A DNA stretch of 64,000 nt from Ghiorsea bivora (GCF_000744415.1 NZ_JQLW01000008.1:1-64000); one strand, 5' to 3'. Shown: positions 36,745 to 59,448, numbered from the stretch's first letter. Notes: generated from the sequence alone by a model not told the origin. Numbers and translations are program-made.

Positions 36745-36855
36745 CTATACGGGTTAATGATTGCCTTTATGGTTTAAAGACACTACCTTAAATTGTGACG
36801 TAGCTTGCGGAATGACAGTGATTGGTTGCTTACTGTGTTGGCTGTTGAGGAGTTC

Positions 36856-39384
36856 ATGGGTATTATTTTAAAGAAAAATACGTTTTGGATTGTGTTGCTG
36901 GTGATGATATTGCTGGTGATGCAGTGGTTGCACTTTTCTCCCATTCCACAGGTGAACCAGTTTATTTATGATCATAGTATGCAATTGGTGCATAAAAATC
37001 CCAGTCATGCGGAGAATATTGTGTTGGTCAGTATTTATGCTGATGACCTTAGCCAGCAAGATAGTGATATACGGCTTAAACAAGTGATTGCCAATGTGTT
37101 AGCAGTGGTGCGTGAAGCCAAGAGCAAAAGCATTTCCATTTTGATACCGCTTGATAAGCGTGAAGCTAACTCTAGCCTGAGTTATTTGGATAATATTGAA
37201 GCTTATTTGCAGGGTATGGAACAGCCCAAGTCGGATATTAAAGCGTTAACCAGTTTGGTGGGTATGGCGCGTGATGATTTGGATATTGATAACCTGTTGG
37301 CTAAAGAAATTCACAAGGCAAAACATATTTATTTGCCTTTCTATATAACCAAACCACTTTCTAAGTTGCCTGACTTCCTGAAATCATCGGTATTGAAAGC
37401 GCAACAGCAACAAGATGTATATGATATGACTTGGTTTATGCCGCAGCGTTATGAAAGGGGTGTGGTGTACACTGATGCATTCCCATTGCAACGTTTAGCC
37501 AAGGGCGCGTATGGCTTGGGTTATTTATCGACTTGGTATGATGCTGCTGATGGTCGCGTACGCAGCGTGCAATTGGCACAAACTTATGCCCAAACATGGG
37601 TGGCAAGTCTGCCTTTATTATTATCTGCTGAGATGATGAATCTACGCGCTAAAGATATTGTGTTTGCACCTATGCAGTATGTAACATTGGCCAATAAACA
37701 CATTCGCCTTGATGATAAACAACGGGTTTTACCACATTTTTATACCGCATTGGATGAAGCCAGTTCAGTGTTTCAGCGCTATACATACCAGCAGCTGATG
37801 TCTGGCGATGTCAGCAAACAGCTTCGGGGAAAAATGGTGCTTTTGGATGCACCAGACCAACTGCAGCCCATTTACACGCCCATTGGTGCGTTATCAGGGC
37901 CTGCAGAGCTGATGGCGCACACAGTAACCAGCTTATTAAATCAAGATGTTTATATACAGTCGCCCAATATGTTGTGGGTCGTATTCGCGGTGTTTGTATT
38001 GCTGGTGTTATATTTAATCTTTGCTTTACCAAGATTACGTTTGATGACGGGTGTTTTGTTAAGTTTATTTATATTGGTGCTTTTGCTTGCAGGCGAAGTA
38101 TATATGCTTCTAGGCCAGCAGGTTTGGTTGTATGGCGGCATAAACATACTGTTATTGCTTGTTGGTGCATCTTTGGTATTGATACGAAAACTTGTGCAAA
38201 TCATGCATCACAAACAAACCTTAGAGATGGCGCAAGTCAATAGGCAGCTTGGTTTGATGTTGCAGGAAAAAGGGAAGTTGGAACAAGCATTTGAACGTTT
38301 CCAAAAGCTTCCTATGACTAAGGCTAGTTTGGATTTACTTTATAATTTGGCATTGGACTTTGAGCGCAAGCGTAAGTTCAACAATACGGTTGCGGTGTAT
38401 CAATATATTTTACAGCAACAAGCTGACTTTAAAGATGTTGCCAAACGTATGGTTTCCGCTGAAAAAATGCAGCATGTTTCAAGCATGGGTACAGGGCAAT
38501 TTAGTACGATTACCTCCTTATTGAGCCAAGGTGATGAAAAACCTATGTTGGGTAGATTTGTCTTGGAAAGAGAATTGGGTAAAGGGGCTATGGGTGCGGT
38601 TTATCTGGGTAGAGACCCGAAAATTGACCGTGTCGTAGCCGTGAAAACTTTAGCATTGGCAGAAGAGTTTGAAAGCACTGAGGTGAAAGAAGTGGAGCAG
38701 CGCTTTTTTCATGAAGCCAGTGCTGCAGGGCGCTTGAATCACCCCAATATTGTTACCATTTATGATGCAGCAGAAGACCATGACCTTGCTTATATCGCCA
38801 TGGAATATATCGAAGGTAAATCATTAAGTGATTTCTCACAAAAGGATACTTTATTACCTGTGCCTGTGGTGCTGAATATTATTGCCAAGATTGCCGATGC
38901 CTTGGATTATGCAGGGAAAAAAGAGATTGTGCATAGGGATATAAAACCTGCCAATATTATGTATCATGAAGAAAGTGGTACGGTTAAAGTCACCGACTTT
39001 GGTATTGCGCGTATTGCTTCATCAGGACGCACGAAGACGGGTATGATTTTGGGTACACCCTCATTTATGTCACCAGAGCAAATGAATGGGCAACCTGTGG
39101 ATTCGCGCTCAGATATTTTTTCATTGGGTGTCACCATGTATGTGTTGCTCACAGGTGTGAAACCATTTCAAGGTGATTCGCTGGCAGCAATTTCTTATAA
39201 AATTGTAAATGATAAACACTTAGATATTTTGATGGTACGCAGTGATTTACCCGTATGTGTAAAAAGTATTATTAACAAAGCATTGCAAAAAGAGCCTGAT
39301 AAACGCTATCAAACAGGTGGTACGATGCGCAGGGCTTTATTACGTTGTCTTAAAACGGCTGTGGAGAATGAGGCTACTGGATGA
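36856..39384 (+). CDS. Membrane Ser/Thr protein kinase with CHASE2-type sensor
   Basis: About 842 residues. The frame opens earlier, but ATG 36856 has GAGGAG 4-5 bases upstream. Order: one N-terminal membrane helix (about 10-28); an extracytoplasmic region of about 330 residues with the CHASE2 pattern (IYDHSMQLVHK early, GKMVLLDAPDQLQPIYTPIG late); three membrane helices (about 370-445); a TPR-like stretch (about 450-550); a Hanks-type kinase (about 565-840). Kinase motifs are complete: GKGAMGAVY, VAVKTL, IVHRDIKPANIMY, VTDFGIARI, GTPSFMSPEQ. Likely active. Signal and substrates unknown. Its 3' end overlaps mnmA convergently by 11 bases. Confidence 0.9.
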   Translation: MGIILKKNTFWIVLLVMILLVMQWLHFSPIPQVNQFIYDHSMQLVHKNPSHAENIVLVSIYADDLSQQDSDIRLKQVIANVLAVVREAKSKSISILIPLDKREANSSLSYLDNIEAYLQGMEQPKSDIKALTSLVGMARDDLDIDNLLAKEIHKAKHIYLPFYITKPLSKLPDFLKSSVLKAQQQQDVYDMTWFMPQRYERGVVYTDAFPLQRLAKGAYGLGYLSTWYDAADGRVRSVQLAQTYAQTWVASLPLLLSAEMMNLRAKDIVFAPMQYVTLANKHIRLDDKQRVLPHFYTALDEASSVFQRYTYQQLMSGDVSKQLRGKMVLLDAPDQLQPIYTPIGALSGPAELMAHTVTSLLNQDVYIQSPNMLWVVFAVFVLLVLYLIFALPRLRLMTGVLLSLFILVLLLAGEVYMLLGQQVWLYGGINILLLLVGASLVLIRKLVQIMHHKQTLEMAQVNRQLGLMLQEKGKLEQAFERFQKLPMTKASLDLLYNLALDFERKRKFNNTVAVYQYILQQQADFKDVAKRMVSAEKMQHVSSMGTGQFSTITSLLSQGDEKPMLGRFVLERELGKGAMGAVYLGRDPKIDRVVAVKTLALAEEFESTEVKEVEQRFFHEASAAGRLNHPNIVTIYDAAEDHDLAYIAMEYIEGKSLSDFSQKDTLLPVPVVLNIIAKIADALDYAGKKEIVHRDIKPANIMYHEESGTVKVTDFGIARIASSGRTKTGMILGTPSFMSPEQMNGQPVDSRSDIFSLGVTMYVLLTGVKPFQGDSLAAISYKIVNDKHLDILMVRSDLPVCVKSIINKALQKEPDKRYQTGGTMRRALLRCLKTAVENEATG

Positions 39385-43145: not shown

Positions 43146-43814
43146 TTAGCCGATAAGTTTTAGTAAATCCGTGAAGTGTGGAAGGCTAACCACTTTATCT
43201 GCATATTCAGCAGGCACATCTTGATAACCATGTTCTGCGAAAGCAACAGTATGACACTGCGCTGCAAAACCAGCTTCAACGTCAAAACGCGTATCACCAA
43301 CCATCACGGTTTCACTGTGGTCAACGCCCATTGCACGACAGCATTCTAACAACATATCAGGCGCTGGTTTTTTTGGAAATCCATCTTCTGGTGATAATGC
43401 CAAAGTCATATAACCATCAAGGCCTAAAGCGGCAGTCACTTTCACGCGCGCTTTGGCAGGTTTGGCAGTCACGATACACATTTTATAACCTTTGCTTTGT
43501 AGGGTATCCAACGTTTCTTTCACGCCAGGAAGCATTTTGCCTTCATCGGCTGGATGCTGCTCATAAAAATCAGTGAATGCATGATACATCGCCATGGTAT
43601 CAGGGTGATTCATAGGTTTACCAAGTACGTTTGAAGCAAGTTTTTGAGCGCCGCCGCCAACATGGGGTTGGGTTTCTTTTGTGGTCATTTGAAAGTCATA
43701 ACCCAGTTTTTTTAAGGCACGGTTTGCATTAGCACGGATATCGGGAAGAGCATCAATCAATGTGCCGTCCAAATCAAAAATGAATGCTTTAATGGGTTTC
43801 TTGTTATTACTCAT
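43146..43814 (-). CDS. gph: Phosphoglycolate phosphatase
   Basis: HAD-family phosphatase of 222 residues. Motif I FDLDGTLIDALPD; motif II VTAKP; motif III KKPAPDMLL; motif IV VGDTRFDVEAG. Gph clears 2-phosphoglycolate from DNA repair or carbon fixation; other small phosphosugars are possible substrates. Its ATG overlaps the queG stop by 4 bases. Confidence 0.88.
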   Translation of the reverse strand: MSNNKKPIKAFIFDLDGTLIDALPDIRANANRALKKLGYDFQMTTKETQPHVGGGAQKLASNVLGKPMNHPDTMAMYHAFTDFYEQHPADEGKMLPGVKETLDTLQSKGYKMCIVTAKPAKARVKVTAALGLDGYMTLALSPEDGFPKKPAPDMLLECCRAMGVDHSETVMVGDTRFDVEAGFAAQCHTVAFAEHGYQDVPAEYADKVVSLPHFTDLLKLIG

Positions 43815-44944
43815 GTTTTCCTCTCAAAACTGGCGATTTCAGCCAATATTTCATTATGTTGTTCTTTTTCTTTCAATAACTGTATATGTTTTTGAACATC
43901 TTGCTGTTGGCTTGCAAGTTGCCCCAGTGCCCACACGGCATGACCACGAATCAAAGGTTCATTGTCATCCAAAACACCAAGCAGTTGCGGTACAAAACTT
44001 ACGTCACCACTATTACCCATGGCAATGCATACATTGCGCAACAGCCCCGCACGCTTGGTTCTTTTGATGGCGGATTTGCGAAACATTTGGCGAAAACCTT
44101 CATCGTCTAAGGACAGAAGCATAGCAAGCTCTGGCAAAAATGTATCCTCACGTGGTTTGAGGAAATCGTTTGATGGTGCTTTAACTTTACTGTTCCAAGG
44201 GCAAATTGTTTGGCAATCATCACAACCAAAAATTCGATTGCCCATAGCTTTGCGTAAGTTCTCAGGGATAAAACCTTTAAATTCAATGGTTAAATACGAA
44301 ATACAAAGACGCGCATCCACCACATAAGGTGAGACAATGGCACCTGTGGGGCAAGCGGGTATACAATCGGTGCATGTGCCGCAGTGCAATGTTGCTTCGG
44401 TGTCAGGTTCAATGTTCGCTGTGGTGAAAAGCTCAGCCAAAAAAAACCAAGAGCCATATTCACGGTTAATGCTCAGTGAGTGTTTACCTTGCCATGCCAG
44501 ACCACCTTTGGCAGCCAGTGCATGTTCTAACACGGGTGCTGTATCCACATAAACGCGTTGCCCATGTTGACCCAACAGTGCATCCAAATCTCGCGCCAAA
44601 GCTTTAAGTTTTTTCTTCATCAGCTCGTGGTAGTCATCACCTCTGGCATAACTGGCAATAATACCTTGCTGTGGGATTGCGTGTTTATGGTTGGGTGGAG
44701 AATAAGGCATGCCTAAAGAAATCACGGTTTGAATATCATCCAACATGGTCGCTGGGTTTTTACGCCTATGGGTGCGTATTTCTTCACCCATATAATCCAT
44801 GTCACCATACATTTTCGCATCTACCCATCTGTCTAAAGCTTCTTGGTCAATCGCATTAACTTGCGGATGGGTGAAGGCACACAAGGCAAAACCGTGTGTT
44901 TGGGCGAGCATTTGAATTTCTTGTTTTGGGTCGTTTTGTACCAT
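43811..44944 (-). CDS. queG: Epoxyqueuosine reductase QueG
   Basis: Last step of queuosine synthesis in tRNA, using cobalamin and two 4Fe-4S clusters. The frame is open upstream, but ATG 44944 gives [20 protein letters not shown], a normal start, in 377 residues. Cluster motifs [16 protein letters not shown] and [11 protein letters not shown] are complete. A HEAT-repeat tail follows ([20 protein letters not shown]). It is divergent from folE, which makes the first precursor of the same pathway. Confidence 0.95.
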
Positions 44945-45038
44945 GGCGCTATTTAAGCATATCAAACTTAGAGAATGTATCGTTTTATATTCGTTTCGCA
45001 TTGAGCTATGGTTGCGGCAATATTTGCAGGAGAGCATT

Positions 45039-45635
45039 ATGCCCAATGAATTTGATGTAAATGACCCGAAAAATAAAGAAGCTATGGCGCACGTGAAAGC
45101 TCTCTTGGCGCATTTTGGTGAAGATCCAGAGCGTGAAGGTTTGTTGGAAACACCCAAGCGTGTGGTTAAAGCATTTGAAGAATATTTTTCAGGCTACAAA
45201 GAAGATCCGTCGGAACATTTGAAAAAAACCTTTGAAGAAGTCGAAGGTTATGATGAACTAGTGATGGTGTCGGATATTGATGTGCATAGCCATTGTGAGC
45301 ATCATCTTGCGCCGTTTTTTGGTAAGGCGCATGTGGCATATATACCCAATGGAAAGGTCGTGGGTTTGTCTAAACTTGGGCGTTTGGTGGATGGCTTTGC
45401 CAAACGGTTGCAGGTGCAAGAAAAGTTAACCATGCAAGTTCATAATGCCATGGAAGAAGTATTGCAGCCTGCGGGTGTGGCGGTGATTTTGCAGTGTAAA
45501 CATTCATGCATGTGTTACCGAGGGGTGAAAAAGCCTGATGCAGTAACAACAACCTCCAAGTTGAGTGGTGCATTTCTGAATAATCCATCCTCGCGTTTGG
45601 AGTTGTTTCAACTGATTCATAATCACGGTCTTTAG
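45039..45635 (+). CDS. folE: GTP cyclohydrolase I
   Basis: Converts GTP to dihydroneopterin triphosphate for folate and queuosine. The start is ATG 45039 with AGGAGAG five bases upstream; the frame runs on upstream without a ribosome site. 198 residues. Zinc ligands in [11 protein letters not shown] and [10 protein letters not shown]; signature [20 protein letters not shown]. It is divergent from queG with a 94-base gap. Confidence 0.96.
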
Positions 45636-45785
45636 TTTTTGTAAGATTTATGTTGACCTTAGCGCATAAAATGAACATCATGCCGTTCGTATTGGTAAGA
45701 TTTTAGTACAAGCTGGTTTTAGGATTGGTAACTATTAAGAGAAACAATGCAATTTAAGATGTAACACAAGAAAGAGGAAAGATAC

Positions 45786-46076: not shown

Positions 46077-46091
46077 ATGTTCACTGTTGAT

Positions 46092-46781
46092 GGGATCGTC
46101 TCAGATAACTAAATATTTTACTTTCTAACCCGTTGTTTTAACAGTACTAATTGTTCCTTTGGACTTGGGTTGTTGAAACGCCACTCACATTCCTTCAAAA
46201 AGTAGTACAAATGCGCTTTGGGAACACCATTAAATTTAAGCATATGACGTTTGGCTTGGTTTCAATACCATTGATGTGATTATGCTTATGTGCAAACAGC
46301 TTTGAATGGTTAATTCGATAGTGCTTAAATTCAGAAATATCTAACATATTATAGCCCAGTCAACAGTCTATATAAACGATGCTATTAGGCTTTACTTTAC
46401 TTTGAATAATGGGTATTAAAGTTGATGATTTTGCATCAGATATAATCTTGGTATAGACCTTACCAACCCTTTTAAGCAAATCAAAAACAGGCACTTTACC
46501 TGCATCCTTTCCTGTGACCGCCAAAGTAGTTTTCATCAACTTCAATCTCACCACTTAGAAATTCAGCCGTTTCTTGTTTAACTTCAGTGCTAATCATGAC
46601 CCGCAAACGGTGATAGTAATATACACCTGTTTTACGATTTAGCCCACCAATTCAGAAGCACATCTAGCTGTACTTCCAGTTACAAAATGCTCCATTAGCC
46701 GTAGCTGTTTTGAATGACTTAATCGACTCTTCCTCATGCTGTCCCTCACCATAACTATTTCTAGTTATCTGGGGCATCCCC
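46092..46781 (-). mobile_element. Decayed IS1595-family (IS1016-like) insertion sequence
   Basis: About 690 bases bounded by imperfect terminal inverted repeats. The left end reads GGGATCGTCTCAGATAACTA (46092-46111). The right end, on the minus strand, reads GGGGATGCCCCAGATAACTA (46781-46762). Both share CAGATAACTA. The interior is a broken DDE transposase of the ISXO2/IS1595 type. No 8-base target duplication was visible in the flanks. It lies only 7 bases from the stop of the neighbouring cNMP-binding gene. Confidence 0.85.
46118..46737 (-). pseudogene. IS1595-family transposase, disrupted
   Basis: Reading the minus strand with frame changes recovers MRKSRLSHSKQLRLMEHFV, NRKTGVYYYHRLRVMI, EIEVDENYFGG, AGKVPVFDLLKRVGKVYTK, DISEFKHYRINHSKLFAHKH and ECEWRFNNPSPKEQLVLL. 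The catalytic DE-x-YFGG and the final helix region are recognisable. At least three frameshifts and one in-frame stop (after IVYIDC) break it, so it cannot make an active transposase. Only a 64-codon piece remains open (46360-46554). Confidence 0.88.
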
Positions 46782-46788
46782 TACTATT

Positions 46789-47865
46789 TTACAGTCTGGA
46801 TATTTCTTGCATCATCTTCACTTTTTGCATATCGGCATGCTGTACCAGTTTTTCTTTTAACGGGGGGTAAGCTACGCTGACATTTAATAAATCATCAAAC
46901 GCTATATGTGCAAGTGATGCATCTGTTTTGGCAGCAAGCTCTGCCATACTTGTGGTTTCACCGCCGTGTAGTGAGGTGTCTCCAGCAATGGATAAGGGGG
47001 GAAGAGGGGATAACATCACCTTTTCTTTATTGCGATTATGTGCCAAATAACAAACATGCCCGCTGATGACAATATCAATGCCATGCACGGGTTGTTTCAA
47101 ATCATAAATAAGTGTGTTGGCTGCAAAGTGGCGTATAGTGAGTTTTCTTGCGAGGTATTTGGTGAGTTTTAAAGGCAGGGTCTGAAATACATCATTGCGA
47201 GCAAGGGCTTGTACATGTGTGCGAAAAATAGCGCGTTGTTTAAGCATTTTATCCAGATGTGGGTTGCCTTTGATCATGGATGAAACTTTTTTTCGGGGAA
47301 TCTCTACTACTTTTGCGGTTGGCGAAGATACAAAAACATCAATATCCATAGTGCTGGGTTTGAGTAAGGTGTGTTCCCCCAGAATATCGAGTTCTCCCAT
47401 ATGTTCTACGAGAATGCGCGTGCCTTCGTGGTTGATAGCAAACGCATCAGCATTGCCCTCTACAATAAGTGTAAGGGTATCACTTAAATCTTCAGCGCGA
47501 CAAATTGCTTGCCCTTCTTTGAGTTTCTTCTGATGTATTTTCAACCAAATTTTACTGGTTAACTCATGAATGATTTTCCCCGTAATGGCATGTTTATCAT
47601 GATCTTCAAAGGCTGTGTCATCCAGCAAGATACGTCCAATTTGTGGGTGTTGTTTGGCAAAAGCCTTGGCTTCTTTGGGTGAGCGTTTAGCAATAATATC
47701 ATGCAAATGTTGTAAGGTGATGGTTGCTGTTGCTTCGCGACCTAGGGTTTGCAACATTTTGGCGTACCGCTGCAAATAAGACTCGTTATCGGGGTACATT
47801 TCAACCAGATTAGCATAAGTATCCAATGCTTTTTCCAGTTCTTTTTTTGTGATTTTTTGGGCCAT
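46789..47865 (-). CDS. Protein with tandem cyclic-nucleotide-binding domains
   Basis: 358 residues. A TPR-like N terminus (about 8-50; ALDTYANLVEMYPDNESYLQ) is followed by CNB domain 1 (about 105-205; ADAFAINHEGTRILVEHMGE, LGEHTLL) and CNB domain 2 (about 230-340; GIDIVISGHVCYLA, IAGDTSL). Neither phosphate cassette has a clean canonical RA motif, so ligand binding is uncertain. No helix-turn-helix is seen, so it is not a CRP-like regulator. Third gene of an operon with the HD-GYP-like and ExeA-like genes; start is 9 bases after the previous stop. Confidence 0.8.
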   Translation of the reverse strand: MAQKITKKELEKALDTYANLVEMYPDNESYLQRYAKMLQTLGREATATITLQHLHDIIAKRSPKEAKAFAKQHPQIGRILLDDTAFEDHDKHAITGKIIHELTSKIWLKIHQKKLKEGQAICRAEDLSDTLTLIVEGNADAFAINHEGTRILVEHMGELDILGEHTLLKPSTMDIDVFVSSPTAKVVEIPRKKVSSMIKGNPHLDKMLKQRAIFRTHVQALARNDVFQTLPLKLTKYLARKLTIRHFAANTLIYDLKQPVHGIDIVISGHVCYLAHNRNKEKVMLSPLPPLSIAGDTSLHGGETTSMAELAAKTDASLAHIAFDDLLNVSVAYPPLKEKLVQHADMQKVKMMQEISRL

Positions 47866-47874
47866 ATTTGCCTA

Positions 47875-49122
47875 CTAAGTATTATCACTTCCTAATGATT
47901 CTTCATACATGCACTTTTGAATCATAAGGTTGGGTTGTTGTTTTAAATCGATTTCTCTAGCCGTGATAGGGTTACCATTGCTATCCATGTTGATGTAAAC
48001 CACAGGGCGCAAGGGGAATTTACTGTGCACCATGATAACCTGACCAATTTCTCCAGTGTTAAGCTGAACGAAAGTTCCAACGGGGTATAGCGATACAGCT
48101 TCAATCAATGCTTTGAGCAATATGGGGTCAAATGCTTTTTTGTGACGGTTCACCAGTTCACGAATAGCATCACGTGGTAATAAACGCGGACGGTAGGGGC
48201 GAATATGAATCAAGGCCTCAAACATAGATAACAGACCGACAACACGGGCAATCCAAGCAATATCATGCCCTGATAACCCTTGTGGACCACTACCATCATA
48301 GCGTTCAGCAGCTTGCTCTGCGGCAAGTAAAATATTTTCATGAGACACATGGCATGATTTTAAGTATTTCACAGCATTTTCAGGCGCTTGGCGAATTAAA
48401 GCAAGTTCATCTTTGGTCAGTTTACCAACTTTTTGACGGACTTCACTAGGCACCATTGCCATACCAATATGATGCAGCATCGCCGCGCTGGCATGTTGCA
48501 CGATGGCGTTGTGCTGTAGTTTTAAGCGTAAACTTATTTTGATGGTATAAAGCATCATCATGATGGATTTTTCAACCAAATCATTCACGCTGCAGTCGGT
48601 ATTGCATATTTGTTTAATATTACGGCTGATTTCTAGTTCCAAAGCATCCAAAACCTTGGTGTTATCTTCAAGTTGCTCCATGAGATTTTGTAGTGAGGTA
48701 TCTAAGGTGCTTAAGTCAGTCGCTTCTTGTTTTTCAGCAGCTTGGAAAATTGTTTGCAAAGACTGGCTCACTTCTTGAAGCCAAGTTGCAACAGAAAAAT
48801 TATGTATATGTGTTGACGTATTTTCGGTTATAGGTTTCTGTTTCACAGCTTCTTGCGTATTTTCTTCCTCATTTGGTAAGGCATCAATACTAAGTTCTTG
48901 CGCTTGACTGGTTTGTTCATCTTCAGGGAGGTTTGCTTCATCAAGAAGCTCTGTTGTTACCACAGGTTCTAATGTGGAATCATGATTTTCGCCCTGTTGG
49001 GCATAAGGGTTATGTTGGTTGCTTGTTGTGTTTGCAGCTTCTGTGACTTTAATACTATCATCAGTCGTAGCATGTTTTTTATGTTGCTGGTGTGCGCGTA
49101 ATAAATCAAAATACTTTGTCAT
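47875..49122 (-). CDS. Degenerate HD-GYP-like protein
   Basis: 415 residues. The first 110 are acidic, low-complexity and probably disordered; a helical region follows (about 110-200). The HD-GYP-like domain spans about 205-360: LHHIGMAMVP, VGKLTKDELALIRQAP, AERYDGSGPQGLSGHDIAWI and RPYRP. Family metal ligands are altered: HD becomes HH, the HP histidine becomes AP, HHE becomes AAE, and the later aspartate becomes Ser. Hydrolysis of cyclic-di-GMP is therefore unlikely, and binding or scaffolding is inferred. Its ATG overlaps the stop of the ExeA-like gene. Confidence 0.78.
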   Translation of the reverse strand: MTKYFDLLRAHQQHKKHATTDDSIKVTEAANTTSNQHNPYAQQGENHDSTLEPVVTTELLDEANLPEDEQTSQAQELSIDALPNEEENTQEAVKQKPITENTSTHIHNFSVATWLQEVSQSLQTIFQAAEKQEATDLSTLDTSLQNLMEQLEDNTKVLDALELEISRNIKQICNTDCSVNDLVEKSIMMMLYTIKISLRLKLQHNAIVQHASAAMLHHIGMAMVPSEVRQKVGKLTKDELALIRQAPENAVKYLKSCHVSHENILLAAEQAAERYDGSGPQGLSGHDIAWIARVVGLLSMFEALIHIRPYRPRLLPRDAIRELVNRHKKAFDPILLKALIEAVSLYPVGTFVQLNTGEIGQVIMVHSKFPLRPVVYINMDSNGNPITAREIDLKQQPNLMIQKCMYEESLGSDNT

Positions 49123-49922
49123 TAGCCTGGATACCTTTGCATGGTGGCTTGCACCAATTTGCTATCAATCAATGCAGATGATGTACGTTGTCCAACGAGC
49201 AAACACCGATCCATCAAGTGGTTGATACGCCGTGGTACACCGCCTGTATGCTGATGAATAAGTATGATGGCTTGTTTGGTTAAAATAGGGCGCTCGCAAC
49301 CTGCAATTTGTAATCGGTGTAATACATAATTTAAAGTATTTTGTGTGTTTAACTTGCCTACATGCAGGTTAAGTGCGACGCGTTGCTGTAGTTGTGGAAT
49401 TTGCGCGATTTTTTCTTGTAATTCAGGTTGTCCTACAAGCAGTAGTGTGACCAAGAACCTATCGCCGAGTTGAAAGTTAAGCAGTAAACGAAGTTCTTCT
49501 AAGGTGGTGATGTCAGGAACACTTTGGGCTTCATCAATACAAATCAGGGTATCTCTGTTTTCCGTGGCATTTTTGCTGAGATGTTCTCTAAGCGCAGTTA
49601 AAAGAATGTTTTTATCTTTTTCAACGATGCCCAAACCTAGTTGTTGACTAATTTCAAACAACATTTCTAAAGGGGATAAGCTTGAATAGTTGATTAAAGC
49701 AATATCAAAACGTTCTTGGGGTAAATCAAGTAATACGCGTTGGGTGGATGTGGTTTTTCCGCAGCCAATTTCGCCTGTAAGTACAATGGCTCCTCGTCGA
49801 CGTATGATAGCATCATAAAGGTCTTCACAAAGGGTACGATGTTCATCGGTTTCATAATAAAAATGTGACGACGGAACATTGTCGAATGGAAAATCATTCA
49901 GCTTCCAATGTTCAAGATACAT
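49122..49922 (-). CDS. ExeA/MshM-like AAA ATPase
   Basis: 266 residues from ATG 49922 (AAAGGAGTT just upstream); the open frame extends 22 codons further without a ribosome site. Walker A LTGEIGCGKTTST, Walker B TLICIDEAQSVP, sensor-like LLVGQPELQEK, and a C-terminal GGVPRRINHLMDRCLL. These are family traits of ExeA-type ATPases of type II secretion and MSHA pili, but this one lacks a peptidoglycan-binding domain. First gene of a three-gene operon behind a sigma-54 promoter. Confidence 0.87.
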   Translation of the reverse strand: MYLEHWKLNDFPFDNVPSSHFYYETDEHRTLCEDLYDAIIRRRGAIVLTGEIGCGKTTSTQRVLLDLPQERFDIALINYSSLSPLEMLFEISQQLGLGIVEKDKNILLTALREHLSKNATENRDTLICIDEAQSVPDITTLEELRLLLNFQLGDRFLVTLLLVGQPELQEKIAQIPQLQQRVALNLHVGKLNTQNTLNYVLHRLQIAGCERPILTKQAIILIHQHTGGVPRRINHLMDRCLLVGQRTSSALIDSKLVQATMQRYPG

Positions 49923-49987
49923 ATCCAACTCCTTTGCAAAACATGCTGCTTTGGCATGGGTTAACATACACGCACATTGCATAATCA

Positions 49988-50003
49988 AGCAAATATACTG
50001 CCA
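49988..50003 (-). promoter_or_regulatory. Sigma-54 promoter for the ExeA-like operon
   Basis: On the minus strand TGGCAGTATATTTGCT matches the sigma-54 consensus TGGCAC-N5-TTGC(A/T) with the required GG-N10-GC spacing. It lies 65 bases upstream of ATG 49922. The same bases form one arm of a 15-base inverted repeat whose other arm (50016-50032) faces the phosphatase gene. Confidence 0.8.
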
Positions 50004-50032: not shown

Positions 50033-50099
50033 AAGTGCATAAGGTTGGTATATGTTTGCCCTATTTATAATAGCCGCTGTAAGGGTAAAGAGGAAGGGT

Positions 50100-50687
50100 A
50101 TGCTGATCATTGATTTGTTGCGACATGGAGCCTTGCAAGGTGGGGTGAAATACAGGGGTGCTTTGGATGAAGACTTAACGCAAACGGGGAGAGAAGCCAT
50201 GGATAAGGTATGGCAACAGCTGCAAGGTGAGGTGGATACGATTATCTGCTCACCACTGTCACGTTGTGCTGAGCCAGCACTTTTATGGGCAGAACAGGCT
50301 GATATTCCTTGTGTAGTTGAGCCTGCGATTCAAGAATTATCCTACGGTGATTGGGAAGGGCTGACTGCAGCACAGATTGAACACGCATACCCAGGCATTT
50401 TGCAAGCATGGCGACAAGACCCTACACCAATGACACCACCCAATGGTGAACCGATGTTGGATTTTTCCAAGCGTATACAAGTCTTTTTGCATCATTTGAT
50501 TCAAGAACATAAACATGGTCATGTATTATTGGTCGCGCATTCAGGTTCGATTCGCATGTTGATTGCGCATGCTTTACAAGCCCCTATTGTTAGTACAAGA
50601 CACTTGTCTATGCCTTATGCTTGTTGGAGTCGCTTAAAGGTAGATAAGGGGCATGTGAGCTTGCAGTTTCATGCCAAGACTATGTAA
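50100..50687 (+). CDS. Histidine phosphatase (CobC/phosphoglycerate mutase-like)
   Basis: 195 residues from ATG 50100 with AGAGGAAGGG upstream; an earlier in-frame ATG (50052) lacks support. Catalytic LLRHGAL (RHG), SPLSRCAEPA, LSYGDWEGL and the second histidine in VAHSGSIRML. These match alpha-ribazole phosphatase/phosphoglycerate mutase relatives. No other cobalamin gene is nearby, so the substrate is open. The 3' end overlaps fliW by 8 bases, convergently. Confidence 0.82.
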   Translation: MLIIDLLRHGALQGGVKYRGALDEDLTQTGREAMDKVWQQLQGEVDTIICSPLSRCAEPALLWAEQADIPCVVEPAIQELSYGDWEGLTAAQIEHAYPGILQAWRQDPTPMTPPNGEPMLDFSKRIQVFLHHLIQEHKHGHVLLVAHSGSIRMLIAHALQAPIVSTRHLSMPYACWSRLKVDKGHVSLQFHAKTM

Positions 50688-51117
50688 GGTTAGGTTGGTG
50701 CATCCAAGGGTAACGCAGCTCTAAATCCGTATCATTACGGATACATTGCAAGCCCATGGATTGGCTTTCGTTGATGGCAATGGGTGCTTTGAGGTTGGCT
50801 GTTACCCAAGTTTTGTCGGCAAAAGGATTAAGAACAAGCATCCACATGATATGGTCGTCTTTATCAAGTTTAAGGCAAGCGCGTTGCTCTTTACTTAATG
50901 TTGGAGGTTCACCCAAGCGGGCGGTGTCCCAAGGGGTTAAAATAAATGATGCCTCTTCATATTCTAAAGATTGCATACAAAGCATATTACCTTTGCCTTC
51001 GTAAATAAAAGCAAAACGTGATGCATCAGGAAACCCCGCTAAACCTCTAGGGAATGAAAACTCACGTATTGTGTTGGGCTGAACAAAGCTTTGAAGGGGA
51101 GAAGAAATTGCTGTCAT
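50680..51117 (-). CDS. fliW: Flagellar assembly factor FliW
   Basis: 145 residues with IREFSFPRGLAGFPDASRFAF, the family start, and VLNPFADKTWVTANLKAPIAIN in the middle. In Bacillus and Campylobacter FliW binds CsrA and flagellin, releasing CsrA when flagellin accumulates. Here it directly follows csrA, which supports that role. Confidence 0.92.
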   Translation of the reverse strand: MTAISSPLQSFVQPNTIREFSFPRGLAGFPDASRFAFIYEGKGNMLCMQSLEYEEASFILTPWDTARLGEPPTLSKEQRACLKLDKDDHIMWMLVLNPFADKTWVTANLKAPIAINESQSMGLQCIRNDTDLELRYPWMHQPNLT

Positions 51118-51118
51118 A

Positions 51119-51337
51119 TTACTTACCTTGCTTGAGCCAAGCTAGTGCATCACCAGCCATTGCGGCCTTATTTTCTTGCTGAATTTGTTCATAAATTTCT
51201 AATCTATGGACTGCTACATCTTCGGGTGCTTCGATACCAAAGCGGGTAATACGCCCGTCTTGGATATCAAGTATGACAAGGCGTATATCATCATTGATAC
51301 GTATGGCTTGCCCAATTTTTCGGCGTATGACCATCAT
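51119..51337 (-). CDS. csrA: Carbon storage regulator CsrA
   Basis: RNA-binding post-transcriptional regulator. 72 residues with VIRRKIGQAIRINDDIRL and APEDVAVHRLEIYEQIQ. Two ATG codons in a row; AGGAG is about 9 bases before the first. Lying between flgL and fliW, it fits the FliW-CsrA-flagellin circuit known from other bacteria. Confidence 0.95.
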   Translation of the reverse strand: MMVIRRKIGQAIRINDDIRLVILDIQDGRITRFGIEAPEDVAVHRLEIYEQIQQENKAAMAGDALAWLKQGK

Positions 51338-51365
51338 AGTCGGCGGCTCCTTTTAAATGTAGCCA

Positions 51366-52247
51366 TTAGCGTAAATAATTTACCAGTGACATACTTTTTA
51401 AGTTGGCAATTTGGGTGTAAGCTGCTTTTAATGCCGTGTCGGCGGTTTGCATATCCACCACGAGTTTTGCAACATCTGCCGACTCATGCTCACTTAGTCG
51501 CTTATCAATCGCAAAACTCATATCACTATAGGATGCCTTATAACTTTGAATGGCACTGATTTGCCCACCCACACGGCTGGTTAAGTCGATGACTTCATTG
51601 GTTGCTGAGGTGAGGTTGCCAATGGCATTGCTGATACCTTGCCTATCGCCAGTTTCTAAAGCGGTGATAAAAGATTGTAGTGCTGTGAACGTATTGGTGA
51701 AAGCAGGCTCATCACCCCGTACATTGGTAGTAATGCTTTGATTGGTATTCACGGCAACTGTTCTGTCTTGGTTGGAACCTTGGTATTGGTATGCCCCAGT
51801 TGCATCTTGGACAAAAGCTGTTGCGCCTGTGTCGGTACCCGCAAATAAAGCTTCTCCCATCCATGTTTGGTTGGCTGAGTTGGCAACTTGATCTAATAAG
51901 TGGCGTACTTCAACAGCTGCGGTGAGTTGTTCGCCAGCGCTGGTTTGTGCTGATGATTGTTGTACAGCTAAGGTTTGCGCACGGGTTAACACATTGCTGA
52001 TGTCATTAAGCATAGTTTGGCTTGAAGACAAGCGTGAATCCGCAATAGATAAGGCTTCAACACTACCTTTGATTTGGCTTTGGGTATGGCGTAAGTCTAA
52101 AGATATTTTGTAATCTAAACCTGCTTGAGCAGGGCGTTGAAAACGCGTGCCTGATGAAATCGCTGCATTGGCATCATTTTTTATTTTGAGTTGTTTATTG
52201 ATACCTACAGTGAGGCTATCGTACATTTGGTTTTGGGTTACTCTCAT
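51366..52247 (-). CDS. flgL: Flagellar hook-associated protein 3 (FlgL)
   Basis: Junction protein between hook and filament. 293 residues, flagellin-like N terminus (MRVTQNQMYDSLTVGINKQL) and C-terminal coiled coil (LSEHESADVAKLVVDMQTAD). Its ATG overlaps the flgK stop by 4 bases. Confidence 0.93.
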   Translation of the reverse strand: MRVTQNQMYDSLTVGINKQLKIKNDANAAISSGTRFQRPAQAGLDYKISLDLRHTQSQIKGSVEALSIADSRLSSSQTMLNDISNVLTRAQTLAVQQSSAQTSAGEQLTAAVEVRHLLDQVANSANQTWMGEALFAGTDTGATAFVQDATGAYQYQGSNQDRTVAVNTNQSITTNVRGDEPAFTNTFTALQSFITALETGDRQGISNAIGNLTSATNEVIDLTSRVGGQISAIQSYKASYSDMSFAIDKRLSEHESADVAKLVVDMQTADTALKAAYTQIANLKSMSLVNYLR

Positions 52248-53980
52248 CTTAATATCCCCATCAAGGAATCCATCATTTGATTGCTTGTTGATATAACTTT
52301 TGCTGAGGCTTCATAAGCCCTTTGAAACTTCATCATGGCAATTAACTCCTCATCAACATTAACACCTGATACGGCATCACGTTGTTGGGTGAGACTATCG
52401 GCTTCGGCTTGGCGGTAAGCGCCTTGCTGATTGGCGAGACCAACATCAAGCCCATATTGGGAAGACAGTGTTGAAATACGGCTATGTAAACTTGCGGCAG
52501 GGCTTCCATCTACACTCAGTGCTTGGTCTTGTAGGTTCATGATTTGTACAGCTGCGGTATTGTCACCAGCAAATATTAATGAGCTACCCTGAGCAATACT
52601 GCCTGTATTGATGGCGCTGGCATTGTTTTGAACCTGTTGTGAAACGACAATGTTTCCTGCTGTCGCACCATGAAAGAAGCTATTTACTTCATAGGCTGCA
52701 AGGAAGTTGCTGGTATCATTAGAAAATGCCATGGTGTTTGCACCTGCATCAAGGTTTAGTCTGCCCGCAATATCGACACTTGCTGTAACACCAGAACCTG
52801 ATGCATTAATGGCTGTGACAACATCATTCATGGTTGCACCAGCGGCAAGGTTGATGGTGAAGTCACTGCTTGGTGTAAGTGGTGTGCCTGTTGCATCATA
52901 GACATGCAGGCTAAAGCTACCTGCTTGTACTTGCCCTGCAAATGTAACGCCTTGGCTTGGGTCATTGAGTGCAAGAGCAGGGTTAAGTGCACCTTGCCCT
53001 GATTGTACAATAGATGCACGAGTTCCGCCACCAGCACTGCTATGCACTTGGTTGGTGGTGTAGGCAAGGTTGGCTGCAAAGCTATCCAAACTATCCATAT
53101 AACTTTGAAAATTACCATCGCGTAATGCCAATAAACCACCCAATGAACCGCCGGTGTCTAAACCTTGAATGGGTGCGTTTTTTCCTTGGATAACAATATC
53201 CCGGAAACCATTTGCACCCGTAGTATTACCGCGCTGAAGGTGGCGTGCTGTACCATCATGGGTCAACATGTCACCGCCCTTGGTTTGAATGAGTACATTA
53301 CCATCTTGCGTATTCACTTGCTGAATAGGGATGATTTGTGCCAATTGACGAATGGCTTCATCACGTTGATCGCGTAAGTCGTTGGCTGCACTAGATGCAC
53401 CTTGTTGGGATGCTTCTTGTGATTTAATTTGATTGCTTAAAGAAGCAATGGCATCAATTTTAAGGTTTGCAGCATCAATTTGTTGATTGATATCTTGATC
53501 TAAACTTTGCTGGGCATTGCTAAGCTGGGTATACATTTGATTGAGCTGGGTGGTTAAAGTCTCACTTTTGTTCAAGACATTGTTTTTTTGTGCCACATCT
53601 TGGGGGTTGTTGCTTAGTTGCTGCCATGATAGAAAATAGTCATTTACAGCTGCTGATAGCCCCGTGTTATCCAAACTACCAAATGCACTCTCTACTGTGG
53701 TTAAACCTGATGTCACTGTATTCCAAAATGCAAACTGTGAAGTGTTTTCACGCATGGCATTGTTAATGAGTGGGTCAACGCTGCGTTGGATGTCATTGAG
53801 GTTTACCCCACGACCTAAATTTAAGTTGCCAATACTTACAGGGCTAGCGGTAACAATATTAGGACTTTGTCTTGAATAACCAGGGGTGTTTACATTTGCC
53901 ATATTGTGCGACAATACATCAATTGCTTTTTGCTGCGCGCGTAAGCTTGATGCGGCAATATTTAAAGATGCGAAACTCAT
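52244..53980 (-). CDS. flgK: Flagellar hook-associated protein 1 (FlgK)
   Basis: 578 residues. N-terminal rod/hook motif SLRAQQKAIDVLSHNMANVN and TPGYSRQ; C-terminal VDEELIAMMKFQRAYEASAK. Both ends are helical and conserved, and the middle is variable. It overlaps flgN by 4 bases. Confidence 0.95.
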   Translation of the reverse strand: MSFASLNIAASSLRAQQKAIDVLSHNMANVNTPGYSRQSPNIVTASPVSIGNLNLGRGVNLNDIQRSVDPLINNAMRENTSQFAFWNTVTSGLTTVESAFGSLDNTGLSAAVNDYFLSWQQLSNNPQDVAQKNNVLNKSETLTTQLNQMYTQLSNAQQSLDQDINQQIDAANLKIDAIASLSNQIKSQEASQQGASSAANDLRDQRDEAIRQLAQIIPIQQVNTQDGNVLIQTKGGDMLTHDGTARHLQRGNTTGANGFRDIVIQGKNAPIQGLDTGGSLGGLLALRDGNFQSYMDSLDSFAANLAYTTNQVHSSAGGGTRASIVQSGQGALNPALALNDPSQGVTFAGQVQAGSFSLHVYDATGTPLTPSSDFTINLAAGATMNDVVTAINASGSGVTASVDIAGRLNLDAGANTMAFSNDTSNFLAAYEVNSFFHGATAGNIVVSQQVQNNASAINTGSIAQGSSLIFAGDNTAAVQIMNLQDQALSVDGSPAASLHSRISTLSSQYGLDVGLANQQGAYRQAEADSLTQQRDAVSGVNVDEELIAMMKFQRAYEASAKVISTSNQMMDSLMGILR

Positions 53981-54453
53981 CTGGATACCTGCTGCGTGGC
54001 ATAATTTTTTTGGTAGGTTTGCGGTACATCAACCGCACCAATGTGTTGTAAAATACTGGTGGTTACATTCCAAGCGGCGCGCAAACGTAAATGGTTTTCA
54101 ATGTGATCTTTTTCTAAGGTCTGCATACGGCGCATTAATTCAATACGCATGTTTTGCAACATGTCTGCTTCATCATCAGCATAAGCATCAATTAAATATT
54201 CCATGGTATGCTGGCTATCACTTAAACCCATAAGACGTTGGCACCTGCTTTCCAATTCATCGAGAATACTTTGGGTGCGAGCCCTGCGTTCAACAAGTTC
54301 AGTCAGAGCGGCGGCATTAAATACTTTCATGGCATCACGCTCTTCAAGAATGATGTTTTCTTGTTCAGTAATGCATGTATGCATGTCCTGTAGAATTTGC
54401 CGTATCATGGCTGGCATTTGGCTGATGTGATGTTCAGGTGTTGAATGATTCAT
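53977..54453 (-). CDS. flgN: Flagellar export chaperone FlgN
   Basis: 158 residues from ATG 54453, with a GGGGGTAAG ribosome site. Mostly helical, heptad-like, with RARTQSILDELESRCQRLMG near the middle. Sequence match to FlgN is weak by eye, but position between flgM and flgK is typical for FlgN, the chaperone of FlgK and FlgL. Confidence 0.8.
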   Translation of the reverse strand: MNHSTPEHHISQMPAMIRQILQDMHTCITEQENIILEERDAMKVFNAAALTELVERRARTQSILDELESRCQRLMGLSDSQHTMEYLIDAYADDEADMLQNMRIELMRRMQTLEKDHIENHLRLRAAWNVTTSILQHIGAVDVPQTYQKNYATQQVSR

Positions 54454-54457
54454 GGTC

Positions 54458-54736
54458 TTACCCCCAAGAGTGTTCGGACAAGGCATTACGAACAATATAG
54501 GTGGATACCGCCTTGTGATCCATTTGGTATGTACCTTGTTCTAAAGCATTACGTATTTCTTCGATTTGCTCTAAGCGTACATCTGGCATGTCTGATAACA
54601 TGACTTTGGCGCGCTCACGTAAACCCGCAGCATCCGATACCTGCACGCTATCGTGGCTGGTTTTAGCAGCAGAACCTTTGGTTTTTTTTGTGGATTTGCT
54701 GGCTGCTGTTGGCGCAGATGAACCTTGAATACGCAT
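54458..54736 (-). CDS. flgM: Anti-sigma-28 factor FlgM
   Basis: 92 residues: a flexible, lysine- and serine-rich N terminus (SKSTKKTKGSAAKTSHDSVQ) and the sigma-binding C-terminal helices (LEQIEEIRNALEQGTYQMDH). FlgM holds FliA until the hook is complete. No sigma-28 gene is in this window. Confidence 0.88.
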   Translation of the reverse strand: MRIQGSSAPTAASKSTKKTKGSAAKTSHDSVQVSDAAGLRERAKVMLSDMPDVRLEQIEEIRNALEQGTYQMDHKAVSTYIVRNALSEHSWG

Positions 54737-55188
54737 TAAATACCTCCTAATGTAGGATTATCGACCACATTCATCTTCTTTATACTATCGGTAGCTTTTT
54801 GAATGTCTTGAATGGACGGTGTGCCTTGTGCTTGCTCGTCTCGTTCAAGCTGACGATATATGCTCATAGCCAAACCAAGAGGTGCCTGTTTGCTGCCTGA
54901 CTCAGCGATTGCTTGATCCATCATGCCTTCATACATGTCATCGGCATAACCTCGAGGTAGAAGTTCTGACTCAGGTATTGTTTTACGCATGGCACTCATC
55001 ATTTGCTGTAGAAATATGGCTTCAAATTGACGACTCACCTTCCATAATTCTTGATCTTTAATTTCAGTTTTTGGGTTAATATGAACGCCTTTTAGCGACA
55101 CGAGGTTTTTTGTTGGCTGAGCTGCAGCTTTCATGGTGGGCTGCTTTTTCATCACTTGCCCGATGACGGTTTCAACTAAATCACGCAT
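54736..55188 (-). CDS. flgJ: Rod-binding protein FlgJ, N-terminal domain only
   Basis: 150 residues with the rod-capping core KVSRQFEAIFLQQMMSAMRK and DDMYEGMMDQAIAESGSKQA. The C-terminal muramidase domain of gamma-proteobacterial FlgJ is absent, so wall cutting must be done by another enzyme. It shares single bases with flgI and flgM. Confidence 0.9.
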   Translation of the reverse strand: MRDLVETVIGQVMKKQPTMKAAAQPTKNLVSLKGVHINPKTEIKDQELWKVSRQFEAIFLQQMMSAMRKTIPESELLPRGYADDMYEGMMDQAIAESGSKQAPLGLAMSIYRQLERDEQAQGTPSIQDIQKATDSIKKMNVVDNPTLGGI

Positions 55189-56291
55189 TATATGATTTTC
55201 AACTCAGCATGCAGTGCGCCTGCGGCTTTGATCGCTTGCAGCACTGCAATCAAGTCGCTAGGTGATGCGCCTACTGTATTTAGGGCAGAGACAAGTGATG
55301 CTAAAGTTACTTGTCTTGGTAAGACAACGAGTTTGGCAGGGTCTTCTTCAACAGTAATGTCGGTGGTAGGTGTTGTAACTGTTGTACCTTCAGAGAAACC
55401 ATAGGGTTGGGATACATCAGCACTTTCAGATACATTAATGCTAATATTCCCGTGAGAGACGGCGACAGTTTCAATGGTGACATCTCGCCCCATAACAATG
55501 GTTCCTGTTCTTTCATCAATGACAACGATGGCAGGTCTATCGGTGCGAAGCTCCAGTTGTTCAAGCTGTGCAATCAAATCAACTGCATCGCCTTGTACAT
55601 TCCAAACCTCGACGGTGCCTGCATCAACAGCTTTAGCAATGCCTTTCCCCATGCTTTTATTGATAACATCTTTCATGCGGCGCACGGTCGTGAAATCAGG
55701 GTCGCGTAACATAATAGTTACTTTTTCTTGGGCAGAAAAGAAGCCTGACGGTGCGGCTTTTTCAACACGTGCACCATTGGGTACTTTGCCTGCTGTAGGA
55801 TGGTTTTTTACGCTGCTTGAGGCTTTGCCTGAAACGGAAAATCCACCTATAGAAATGCTGCCTTGTGCGACAGCGTAAGCCTGACCATCACCACCTAAAA
55901 GAGGAGTGATAAGTAGTGTGCCGCCACGTAGGCTTGATGCATCACCCATGCTTGAAACGGTGATGTCTATTTTTTGCCCTGGGCGGGCAAAGGCAGGTAG
56001 CTCTGCAGTGACCATCACCGCAGCAATGTTTTCAGGTTTTATTTTGGTAATTTTAGGACGTACATTAATGCCAAAACGCTCTAACATGGCAGTGATACTA
56101 TTGATGGTAAATGGAGATGTTGTTGAGTCATCACCTGTACCATCTAAACCGACAACAATACCATAACCAATCAATGCATTGGCTCGAACACCTTCAATAT
56201 CAGCCAAATCTTTGATACGCTCAGCTTGTGCAGCAGTAGCAAAAGAAATTGACATGAGCAAAAAGGTAATATATTTCAATATGGTTTTCAT
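55188..56291 (-). CDS. flgI: Flagellar P-ring protein FlgI
   Basis: 367 residues from ATG 56291; a GTG four codons earlier is less likely. The signal peptide ends FATAAQA. The conserved start ERIKDLADIEGVRANALIGY and GIVVGLDGTGDDS are clear, and the C terminus has LVSALNTVGASPSDLIAVLQ. It forms the bushing in the peptidoglycan layer. TAATG junction with flgH. Confidence 0.96.
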   Translation of the reverse strand: MKTILKYITFLLMSISFATAAQAERIKDLADIEGVRANALIGYGIVVGLDGTGDDSTTSPFTINSITAMLERFGINVRPKITKIKPENIAAVMVTAELPAFARPGQKIDITVSSMGDASSLRGGTLLITPLLGGDGQAYAVAQGSISIGGFSVSGKASSSVKNHPTAGKVPNGARVEKAAPSGFFSAQEKVTIMLRDPDFTTVRRMKDVINKSMGKGIAKAVDAGTVEVWNVQGDAVDLIAQLEQLELRTDRPAIVVIDERTGTIVMGRDVTIETVAVSHGNISINVSESADVSQPYGFSEGTTVTTPTTDITVEEDPAKLVVLPRQVTLASLVSALNTVGASPSDLIAVLQAIKAAGALHAELKII

Positions 56292-57001
56292 TAGAAGGGC
56301 CACAATGCGTCAAGTGTTTGACCAAGCCAGCCTTCGTCGGACATGGCTGCAAGAGAACCGCCCCCCCCATAACTGATATGAGCTTGGGCGACTTGTGCAG
56401 AAAGAATAGTATTTTCAGCGGAAATATCAGAAGGACGAACAATACCTGTAAAAGTGAGTTCTTGAGGCTGTTGATTGATGGTTACTTCGCGGCGACCAAT
56501 GATTTTCATGTTGCCATTAGGGTAAACTTCTGTAACTACAGACGTAACACTGGCAATAAGAGAGTCTGAGTTGGTGGTTTCTCCAGCGCCTGTAAAACTT
56601 TTATCATTGCTGGTATCCATAGCCAATTTTGGGTCAAAGTTGGGGGCAATACTTTTTTCCAAACCAAATAAGGCGCTAAGGCTAGAAGTATGTTGTGAAG
56701 ACCTGCTCTTTTTTGTACCTAACGAGCGGGTGGCGCTGGCATTTTCTTGTACCAATACCATAACGAGATCACCAACTTGGTGGGCTTTTGGGTCGGTAAA
56801 CATGGTTGCACCTGTATTGTGCCATAATGAGCCTGTGCTGGTATGATTTAGTACGGCGGTTTGTAGCGCTTTATCAACAATAGGTTTGTTTAGGTCTTGG
56901 GTAACTTCTTTTTTTGTTGCACCACAAGCACTCAGCAGAATCATACTAATAATAAGAGCAGTTAAACGAGTGGCTAGGTGTGGTTTTGAAGTAAGGAACA
57001 T
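56291..57001 (-). CDS. flgH: Flagellar L-ring lipoprotein FlgH
   Basis: 236 residues. Lipoprotein signal with lipobox LLSAC (Cys26). Family motifs SLWHNTGATMFTDPKAHQVG, GRREVTINQQPQELTFTGIV and RPSDIS. It forms the outer-membrane ring. Junction with flgA overlaps by one base. Confidence 0.95.
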   Translation of the reverse strand: MFLTSKPHLATRLTALIISMILLSACGATKKEVTQDLNKPIVDKALQTAVLNHTSTGSLWHNTGATMFTDPKAHQVGDLVMVLVQENASATRSLGTKKSRSSQHTSSLSALFGLEKSIAPNFDPKLAMDTSNDKSFTGAGETTNSDSLIASVTSVVTEVYPNGNMKIIGRREVTINQQPQELTFTGIVRPSDISAENTILSAQVAQAHISYGGGGSLAAMSDEGWLGQTLDALWPF

Positions 57002-57702
57002 TATACACCTCCTATAGTTACGGAAACCGTATGTGCATTTTGTACAATACTCTGTAGTTTTTGTTTGCTGCGTGAGTTTTGAACCAACATGCGATCGCCA
57101 CGGCTACCTGATTTAAGTGCAATACCTTCGGCTCGGACTTGAATACCGCCTAAGGTAACCAATATCGTCACATGATCACCACGCTTAATAAGGGGAGGGC
57201 GTTTGACCATAGATGAAACGACCACATCATCCCTGCGCATGCGTGTTAAGCTTTTTAAACCTACTACATCTGACAAAGACGACCATGTTTGACCGCGCAG
57301 GCCAGCAATGTTTTTCCATTCTAATTGTAACATACTTCTATCTAGCATAGTTCGTGCCGAAATATCCTGGTTGAGTGTAACAACATTACGCATCCATTTG
57401 ACCTGCGCTGTAACATACCAACGTCTAAGGCTTTTTCCTGTGCCACGTTCTGCAATCAATGATACACGGGATGGCAACGAACGCAGGTTAGGTAGTGACC
57501 AACGTAGTTTTCCTGTGGTATTTGGCCAGCGTGGAATATTAATAAGCTCAGCGACAGCACCTTTTGCCGATGGTTTAGAGGCAAAAAATGCCGTTAAAGA
57601 TTTTTGCATTTCGGGGTCAATATTTTTTGCTGTGACAGGTGTTTCTGCCTGAGCCACATGGGCAGCCAATAACATAAACAAAAAGAAAAAGGATTTAAGC
57701 AT
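57001..57702 (-). CDS. flgA: P-ring assembly chaperone FlgA
   Basis: 233 residues. N-terminal signal peptide (FFLFMLLAAHVAQA), weakly conserved middle, and a C-terminal SAF-type domain with MVKRPPLIKRGDHVTILVTL and VRAEGIALKSGSRGD. It helps FlgI assemble in the periplasm. It lies between flgG and flgH. Confidence 0.92.
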   Translation of the reverse strand: MLKSFFFLFMLLAAHVAQAETPVTAKNIDPEMQKSLTAFFASKPSAKGAVAELINIPRWPNTTGKLRWSLPNLRSLPSRVSLIAERGTGKSLRRWYVTAQVKWMRNVVTLNQDISARTMLDRSMLQLEWKNIAGLRGQTWSSLSDVVGLKSLTRMRRDDVVVSSMVKRPPLIKRGDHVTILVTLGGIQVRAEGIALKSGSRGDRMLVQNSRSKQKLQSIVQNAHTVSVTIGGV

Positions 57703-57707
57703 GGTGT

Positions 57708-58496: not shown

Positions 58497-58509
58497 AATA
58501 GTTTACCTC

Positions 58510-59253: not shown

Positions 59254-59298
59254 ATTTTTCTCCTCGAACACGATTGAAACTGTGTATGTGGAAGAAAG

Positions 59299-59314
59299 AG
59301 CATGTTTAATGCCA
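59299..59314 (-). promoter_or_regulatory. Sigma-54 promoter upstream of flgF
   Basis: On the minus strand TGGCATTAAACATGCT has GG-N10-GC spacing and matches most of the sigma-54 consensus. It is 46 bases upstream of the flgF ATG, in the right direction. Sigma-54 control of rod and ring genes is known in several flagellated proteobacteria. Confidence 0.7.
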
Positions 59315-59448
59315 AGCTTTGTTTTTTCTTAAGCTACTGTTTTTAAAGGATTCATGGTTTTGTTACTGTCAGCCTTTCGGCATGAATGGCCGAAGTTAGG
59401 GAAAAAATTTCCGCTTATATATTGTTTGCTTCAAATGTGGTTGTACAT

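Follow-up and report, generated by a model that had tools for sequence, protein, structure and literature searches.

Introduction

What do an ATPase, an HD-GYP-family pseudoenzyme and a protein with two cyclic-nucleotide-binding (CNB) domains do together in one operon that lies next to flagellar genes? The question is raised by a stretch of 64 kb (hereafter the window; GC content 42.6%) on contig C8 of the genome of the iron-oxidizing zetaproteobacterium Ghiorsea bivora TAG-1, which comprises 2.15 Mb in 13 contigs, and no description of this combination of proteins was found in the open-access literature. An earlier note on this DNA had guessed at a second-messenger-responsive module acting on motility or envelope machinery. 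The part of this guess that stands is a co-conserved module of second-messenger type that is associated with envelope machinery, but the machinery is an exopolysaccharide (EPS) exporter and not the flagellum.

The operon is proposed here, with a probability of about 0.6, to be a cytoplasmic accessory or control module of a Wzy-type EPS secretion system, which would consist of a motor, a switch and an adaptor and would have been relocated in Ghiorsea. That the module is linked to EPS in some way is highly probable, and the specific mechanism by which it would gate EPS export is put forward tentatively. Extracellular polymers shape the iron mats that are built by Zetaproteobacteria, and an operon that looked like an orphan is now tied to a specific EPS system, which provides a partner to test. 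Since a conserved HD-GYP pseudoenzyme has thereby been given a defined partner, the idea can be tested directly in a cultured isolate. Of the structures made by these bacteria, only for twisted stalks has a candidate gene cluster been put forward (PMC8250860), and what underlies sheaths and other forms at the molecular level is described as little studied (PMC10734525).

Gene organization

The operon consists of three minus-strand genes arranged head to tail, which encode an ExeA/XrtA-type AAA ATPase (49922-49122, 266 aa), the HD-GYP-family pseudoenzyme, termed here the HD protein (49122-47875, 415 aa), and the tandem CNB protein (47865-46789, 358 aa). The junctions reported in the earlier note are confirmed and are those of a real operon, the first two genes sharing 1 base at 49122 (TAATG) and the last two being separated by 9 bases (47875 to 47865). 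The ATPase is taken to start at ATG 49922 (MYLEHW), which gives 266 residues, and not at the listed TTG 49988, because its orthologs begin at MYLEHW. On the other side of the intergenic region is the divergent gene of a CobC-like histidine phosphatase (50052-50687, plus strand), a neighbor that is kept in Ghiorsea and is not counted as part of the module, followed by the minus-strand genes for FliW, a flagellin-type protein, FlgM and further flagellar proteins (50680-60270), a genus-specific neighborhood that also lies outside the module.

Linkage and co-inheritance with an EPS exporter

In the other genera, the ATPase and HD genes, in some cases with the CNB gene, are found head to head with the genes for the exporter, a Wzz/BY-kinase protein and a Wzy_C protein, which are followed by those for AmiC and an MsbA-like ABC exporter. 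The EPS exporter is a Wza-like protein of 750-930 aa with FG-GAP, OmpA, Poly_export and SLBB domains, whose top family is TIGR03027 with a score under the cut-off, and this Poly_export/SLBB exporter, the Wzz/BY-kinase and the Wzy_C protein are the features of a Wzy-type EPS locus to which the module is linked. The ATPase and exporter genes are head to head on 19/19 contigs, one of them from a genome outside the class, at distances of 107-480 bases with one at 2.4 kb. The ATPase and HD genes are on the same strand on 32/32 contigs, separated by no more than 134 bases except in the outgroup genome G078, where an apparent gap of 946 bases is an artifact of a partial match and the open reading frames overlap; HD-CNB pairs, as defined by contig coordinates, number 25. 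In G078 the ATPase-HD pair is divergent from exporter-Wzc-Wzy genes, and no CNB gene is next to that for HD. In TAG-1, the exporter (58% identical to the copy in locus L074), a Wzc-like copolymerase/kinase, a small protein and a Wzy-like polymerase are encoded on contig C6, apart from the module on C8.

Co-conservation had been proposed as a check on the module, and it is found: the three genes are co-conserved, and the ATPase and HD genes share the presence/absence pattern of the exporter. The named relatives in which the HD protein was found belong to Ghiorsea or are other Zetaproteobacteria. Among 78 genomes of the class, 37 have both HD and exporter and 39 have neither, HD alone is present in none, and the exporter alone is present in two incomplete genomes, G017 (where there is an ATPase and no HD match) and G074. 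The Fisher value for this co-occurrence, 6e-20, ignores kinship and overstates independence because the genomes are related, and the independent events are therefore far fewer than 37. The ATPase, HD protein and exporter are all absent from G018 and G071, which lie inside otherwise positive genera, and these joint absences indicate real joint losses. In a sample of 398 genomes drawn from across the phylum, no genome other than those of the class and G078 has the full-length exporter, and strict ATPase and HD scores have the same limit.

The HD-GYP pseudoenzyme and the CNB protein

The HD protein, assigned to its family by the HD_5 match (E=9e-24, profile search), alignment and a structural model, contains an N-terminal helix (residues 2-16), a disordered linker to residue ~106, a helical region, the HD domain and a small C-terminal beta domain. 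The model has a pLDDT of ~90 over most of residues 111-410 and matches DvhD (9rbz), PA4781, PmGH and Bd1817. An active HD-GYP phosphodiesterase has the metal ligands HD, HH and D together with GYP, and the corresponding positions were set by comparison with 5z7c and 4mcw. The alignment bears out the earlier description of an HD-GYP protein without metal ligands, as these are missing in 29/29 sequences from the class: the HD motif has become HH or HQ and the next ligand His is lost, small or polar residues stand at the HH positions, Ser or Thr has taken the place of the metal Asp, and the GYP motif is likewise gone. The HD copy of the outgroup genome G078 (in locus L175:9969-15231) has kept HD and GYP and has lost HH, and is, as judged from its residues, apparently an intermediate state in the decay of the active site. 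An HD match in Phycisphaerae (L155) has neither an ATPase nor an exporter partner in its locus.

Among the solved relatives closest to the HD protein is DvhD of Desulfovibrio vulgaris (PDB 9rbz), which serves a biofilm-adhesin system as a non-catalytic c-di-GMP receptor (PMC13090378) and, like the HD protein of the module, has an HD-GYP fold without metal ligands. However, DvhD is a PAS/dCache receptor of the membrane in which SQ stands in place of HD and the GYP Tyr is kept, whereas the module's protein has no sensor domain, has HH or HQ in place of HD, has lost GYP and has an ATPase as its partner. In a mapping made by hand from a printed profile alignment, 3/8 of the c-di-GMP contacts of DvhD (L577, R650 and Y652) align with the invariant residues L235, R308 and Y310 of the HD protein; contacts Y621 (the GYP Tyr), K582, Y523 and E668 are not kept, and M646 is Leu in the TAG-1 copy.

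The CNB protein contains the cNMP_binding domain twice (E=1e-18, profile search), and its model (mean pLDDT 85) shows a helical, TPR-like region at the N terminus and two CNB folds with no HTH, so that the predicted structure agrees with the claim of a tandem CNB protein without a DNA-binding domain. A regulator of the CRP/FNR type combines CNB with an HTH DNA-binding domain, which is absent here from both the domain matches and the model. The two CNB folds resemble the tandem CNB of PKA regulatory subunits and CRP (Foldseek E ~1e-15), from which the protein differs in having no HTH, no kinase partner gene and, in the TAG-1 copy, no pocket Arg. The term tandem CNB is correct, but the TAG-1 copy is without the usual ligand-binding residues. 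Binding of cNMP calls for a phosphate-binding cassette of GE and Arg-(S/T/A), which is incomplete in this protein, as the pocket of CNB1 reads GEHTLLKPSTMDIDV, with GE present and Arg missing, and CNB2 has lost both parts of the motif. Since the canonical Arg is missing from both pockets, cNMP binding by the TAG-1 protein is doubtful.

These losses, together with those of the metal ligands and GYP in the HD protein, fit a variant in which both are pure ligand-free scaffolds and "second messenger" is a matter of mere ancestry. This variant is compatible with the EPS link and is a serious possibility, if somewhat short of even odds. It is opposed by the invariance of the three residues that correspond to DvhD contacts and by the canonical Arg, which most other genera have in CNB1 and which a second CNB paralog also keeps. 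The gene of that paralog lies behind the first in related Ghiorsea genomes and encodes a near-consensus pocket (GELAFLDNTPRNADI and similar). In TAG-1 its place is occupied by a decayed transposase remnant (46079-46786, minus strand), which is IS1595-like and both flanks of which align with the flanks in the relatives; copies of the remnant (87% and 80%) are found elsewhere in the genome at C13:42451 and C8:202662. A third CNB protein (~435 aa) with consensus pockets is encoded beside GTP cyclohydrolase I in relatives (L064:15130-16440 and L066:12879-14177, compared with 43800-45700 in the window). The whole TAG-1 genome gave a single match to the CNB protein, and TAG-1 therefore seems to have shed this family.

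The CNB gene is located behind that for HD in Ghiorsea and in parts of genera g4, g8, g9, g14 and g18, and the modules of g13, several g4 genomes and G078 do not include it. In g11, putatively Mariprofundus, it is kept without the ATPase, HD and exporter genes. In g7 (L090:1-3400, L230) it is directly beside AmiC and upstream of hflKC-like genes, the EPS, ATPase and HD genes being gone, and this arrangement looks like a scar after loss of the EPS part; the hflKC-side neighbors of the g11 gene are the same as those in g7. Because several genera have the module without a CNB gene and this gene persists alone in g11, the ATPase and HD protein are the conserved core, with the CNB protein as the loosest member.

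Promoter and flagellar neighborhood

A sigma-54-type site, ATGGCAGTATATTTGCTTGA, is present on the minus strand at 50004-49985, with GG at -24 and GC at -12 in GG-N10-GC spacing; 66 nt separate the -12 GC from the ATG of the ATPase. A single site with such a score is unremarkable, since there are 24 sites scoring at least 10 in the window versus 7.8 in shuffles. The sigma-54-type promoter of the earlier note is instead supported by conservation, as the only conserved intergenic block in the upstream regions of 12 Ghiorsea-clade genomes is CTTGAA-n-TGGCA-N5-TTTGCTTGA, in which the -24 GG reads AG in two of the 12; the site has the same class of position in these genomes. Most of the other genera lack a comparable site ahead of the ATPase gene. 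A sigma-54 site upstream of the EPS exporter was also considered and was dropped, as it is present in TAG-1 and some close relatives and is not conserved across Ghiorsea.

Within Ghiorsea the operon has, in most cases, FliW, flagellin-type and other flagellar genes as neighbors. This neighborhood and the sigma-54-type promoter, both of which had been noted earlier, are features of Ghiorsea only. They would agree with conversion of the module, after its relocation, into a flagellar or motility regulator in that genus, since the flagellar neighbors and the promoter are conserved in most of Ghiorsea and the EPS linkage is broken there. The broken linkage also counts against the EPS-module reading itself, as do the occurrence of the CNB protein without the EPS cluster in g11 and the several missing DvhD contacts. 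However, a new role in motility is unlikely given that the exporter is retained in every module-bearing Ghiorsea genome, that the Ghiorsea ATPase is 57-71% identical to the EPS-linked orthologs of the family, and that every other genus with linkage data ties the module to EPS.

The ATPase and its relatives

The ATPase has an AAA_22 domain (E=1e-22, profile search) with intact Walker A (GEIGCGKTT) and DEAQ motifs, which are invariant among the orthologs. Its superfamily is that of GspA/ExeA, with which it shares the AAA_22 core, and it is 33% identical to a longer homolog in the TAG-1 genome, so that it might be a factor that assembles type II secretion systems or type IV pili and lies beside EPS genes by chance. 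Yet GspA/ExeA has a C-terminal peptidoglycan-binding region and GspB or secretin neighbors, and here the 266 aa are those of the ATPase alone, with no peptidoglycan-binding domain and no GspB or secretin alongside. In addition, a separate ExeA-like protein (568-aa frame) is encoded on contig C5 of TAG-1, and the presence or absence of the ATPase tracks the EPS exporter. Such an assembly factor is hence improbable, and a role in type II secretion or pili was rejected because, as the earlier note had stated, no secretin or pilin gene adjoins the module. In gammaproteobacterial family f9 (L203-L210), the gene of a GspA-like ATPase, with or without a GspB-like neighbor, is convergent with an HD-GYP gene. 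This arrangement would favor the secretion alternative and was treated as incidental, the genes being convergent and the adjacency being seen in one sampled family only.

Membership in the XrtA/PEP-CTERM exosortase-linked EPS systems is suggested by TIGR03015 and TIGR03027, the top families of the ATPase and the exporter. The former is named as an ATPase of the XrtA/PEP-CTERM system, the clusters of which contain EPS genes, and this kinship also favors the EPS module proposed here; in both systems an ExeA/MshM-type ATPase is encoded with Wza-, Wzc- and Wzy-like EPS proteins. However, the exporter and ATPase score under the curated cut-offs (187 bits versus 324.5 for the ATPase in TIGR03015, its best NCBIfam family), the partners of the ATPase are an HD-GYP pseudoenzyme and a CNB protein, and the exosortase XrtA/EpsH (PF09721) had no match in TAG-1 or any other Ghiorsea genome. 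Membership is accordingly very improbable and was rejected. A role in anti-phage defense gave weak matches only and was also rejected.

Proposed mechanism and the AmiC-MsbA locus

In the proposed EPS module, the ATPase would be a motor or assembly factor that acts on the export complex, presumably through physical contact with the exporter. The HD-GYP pseudoenzyme, its constant partner, would act without catalysis, either as a switch or as a scaffold, and might read c-di-GMP in the manner of DvhD, and the CNB protein would be an accessory adaptor. The module would most probably power and gate EPS export, the gating step, the sensing of a ligand and the direction of control being conjectural. 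In Ghiorsea, the operon would have been relocated beside flagellar genes and come under sigma-54, so that export competence would be co-expressed with genes for motility and attachment.

The locus from which the module is missing in Ghiorsea has a different content in other genera. In g11 (L215-L221), the AmiC-MsbA pair is preceded by genes for a TLC-type transporter, a mannose-P isomerase/GMP-type protein, a CotH/SH3 protein and a GH113 protein, an arrangement that has been described beside the twisted-stalk cluster sfz of Mariprofundus (PMC8250860). What occupies the amidase-MsbA locus thus depends on the genus: it is the EPS cluster in some, sfz-type genes in Mariprofundus and neither of these in Ghiorsea. 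Comparison of L215-L221 with L225, L072 and L074 suggests that the locus hosts alternative EPS systems, the mutual exclusion of sfz-type genes and EPS cluster being seen in 7 sampled g11 loci. Many genomes other than those of Mariprofundus have the module-linked EPS system, and none of the sampled g11 genomes does. Like this system, sfz is a zetaproteobacterial EPS locus beside the same amidase and MsbA-like genes, but sfz has different synthase and exporter genes and is situated there in genomes without the module-linked cluster.

It is conceivable, although rather unlikely in this full form, that the operon represents an undescribed EPS-export control complex in which a catalytically dead HD-GYP receptor for c-di-GMP, together with a CNB adaptor, gates a dedicated motor ATPase. 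Such a complex would serve the matrix polysaccharide of Zetaproteobacteria without twisted stalks, including a genus proposed to build iron-oxide sheaths, and would belong to the ancestral amidase-MsbA locus that holds sfz in Mariprofundus. G. bivora is reported to form amorphous oxides. A sheath-specific role was rejected since the exporter and HD protein are also present in this species, and they are found in all genomes of the genus Ghiorsea but one, which is 56% complete.

Two other genes of the window are also of interest. One (36805-39384) encodes a fusion of CHASE2 with a Ser/Thr protein kinase (859 aa), a possible sensor kinase, and the other (14580-16070), between housekeeping genes, encodes a TraF_2-domain protein of the conjugal-transfer TraF family.
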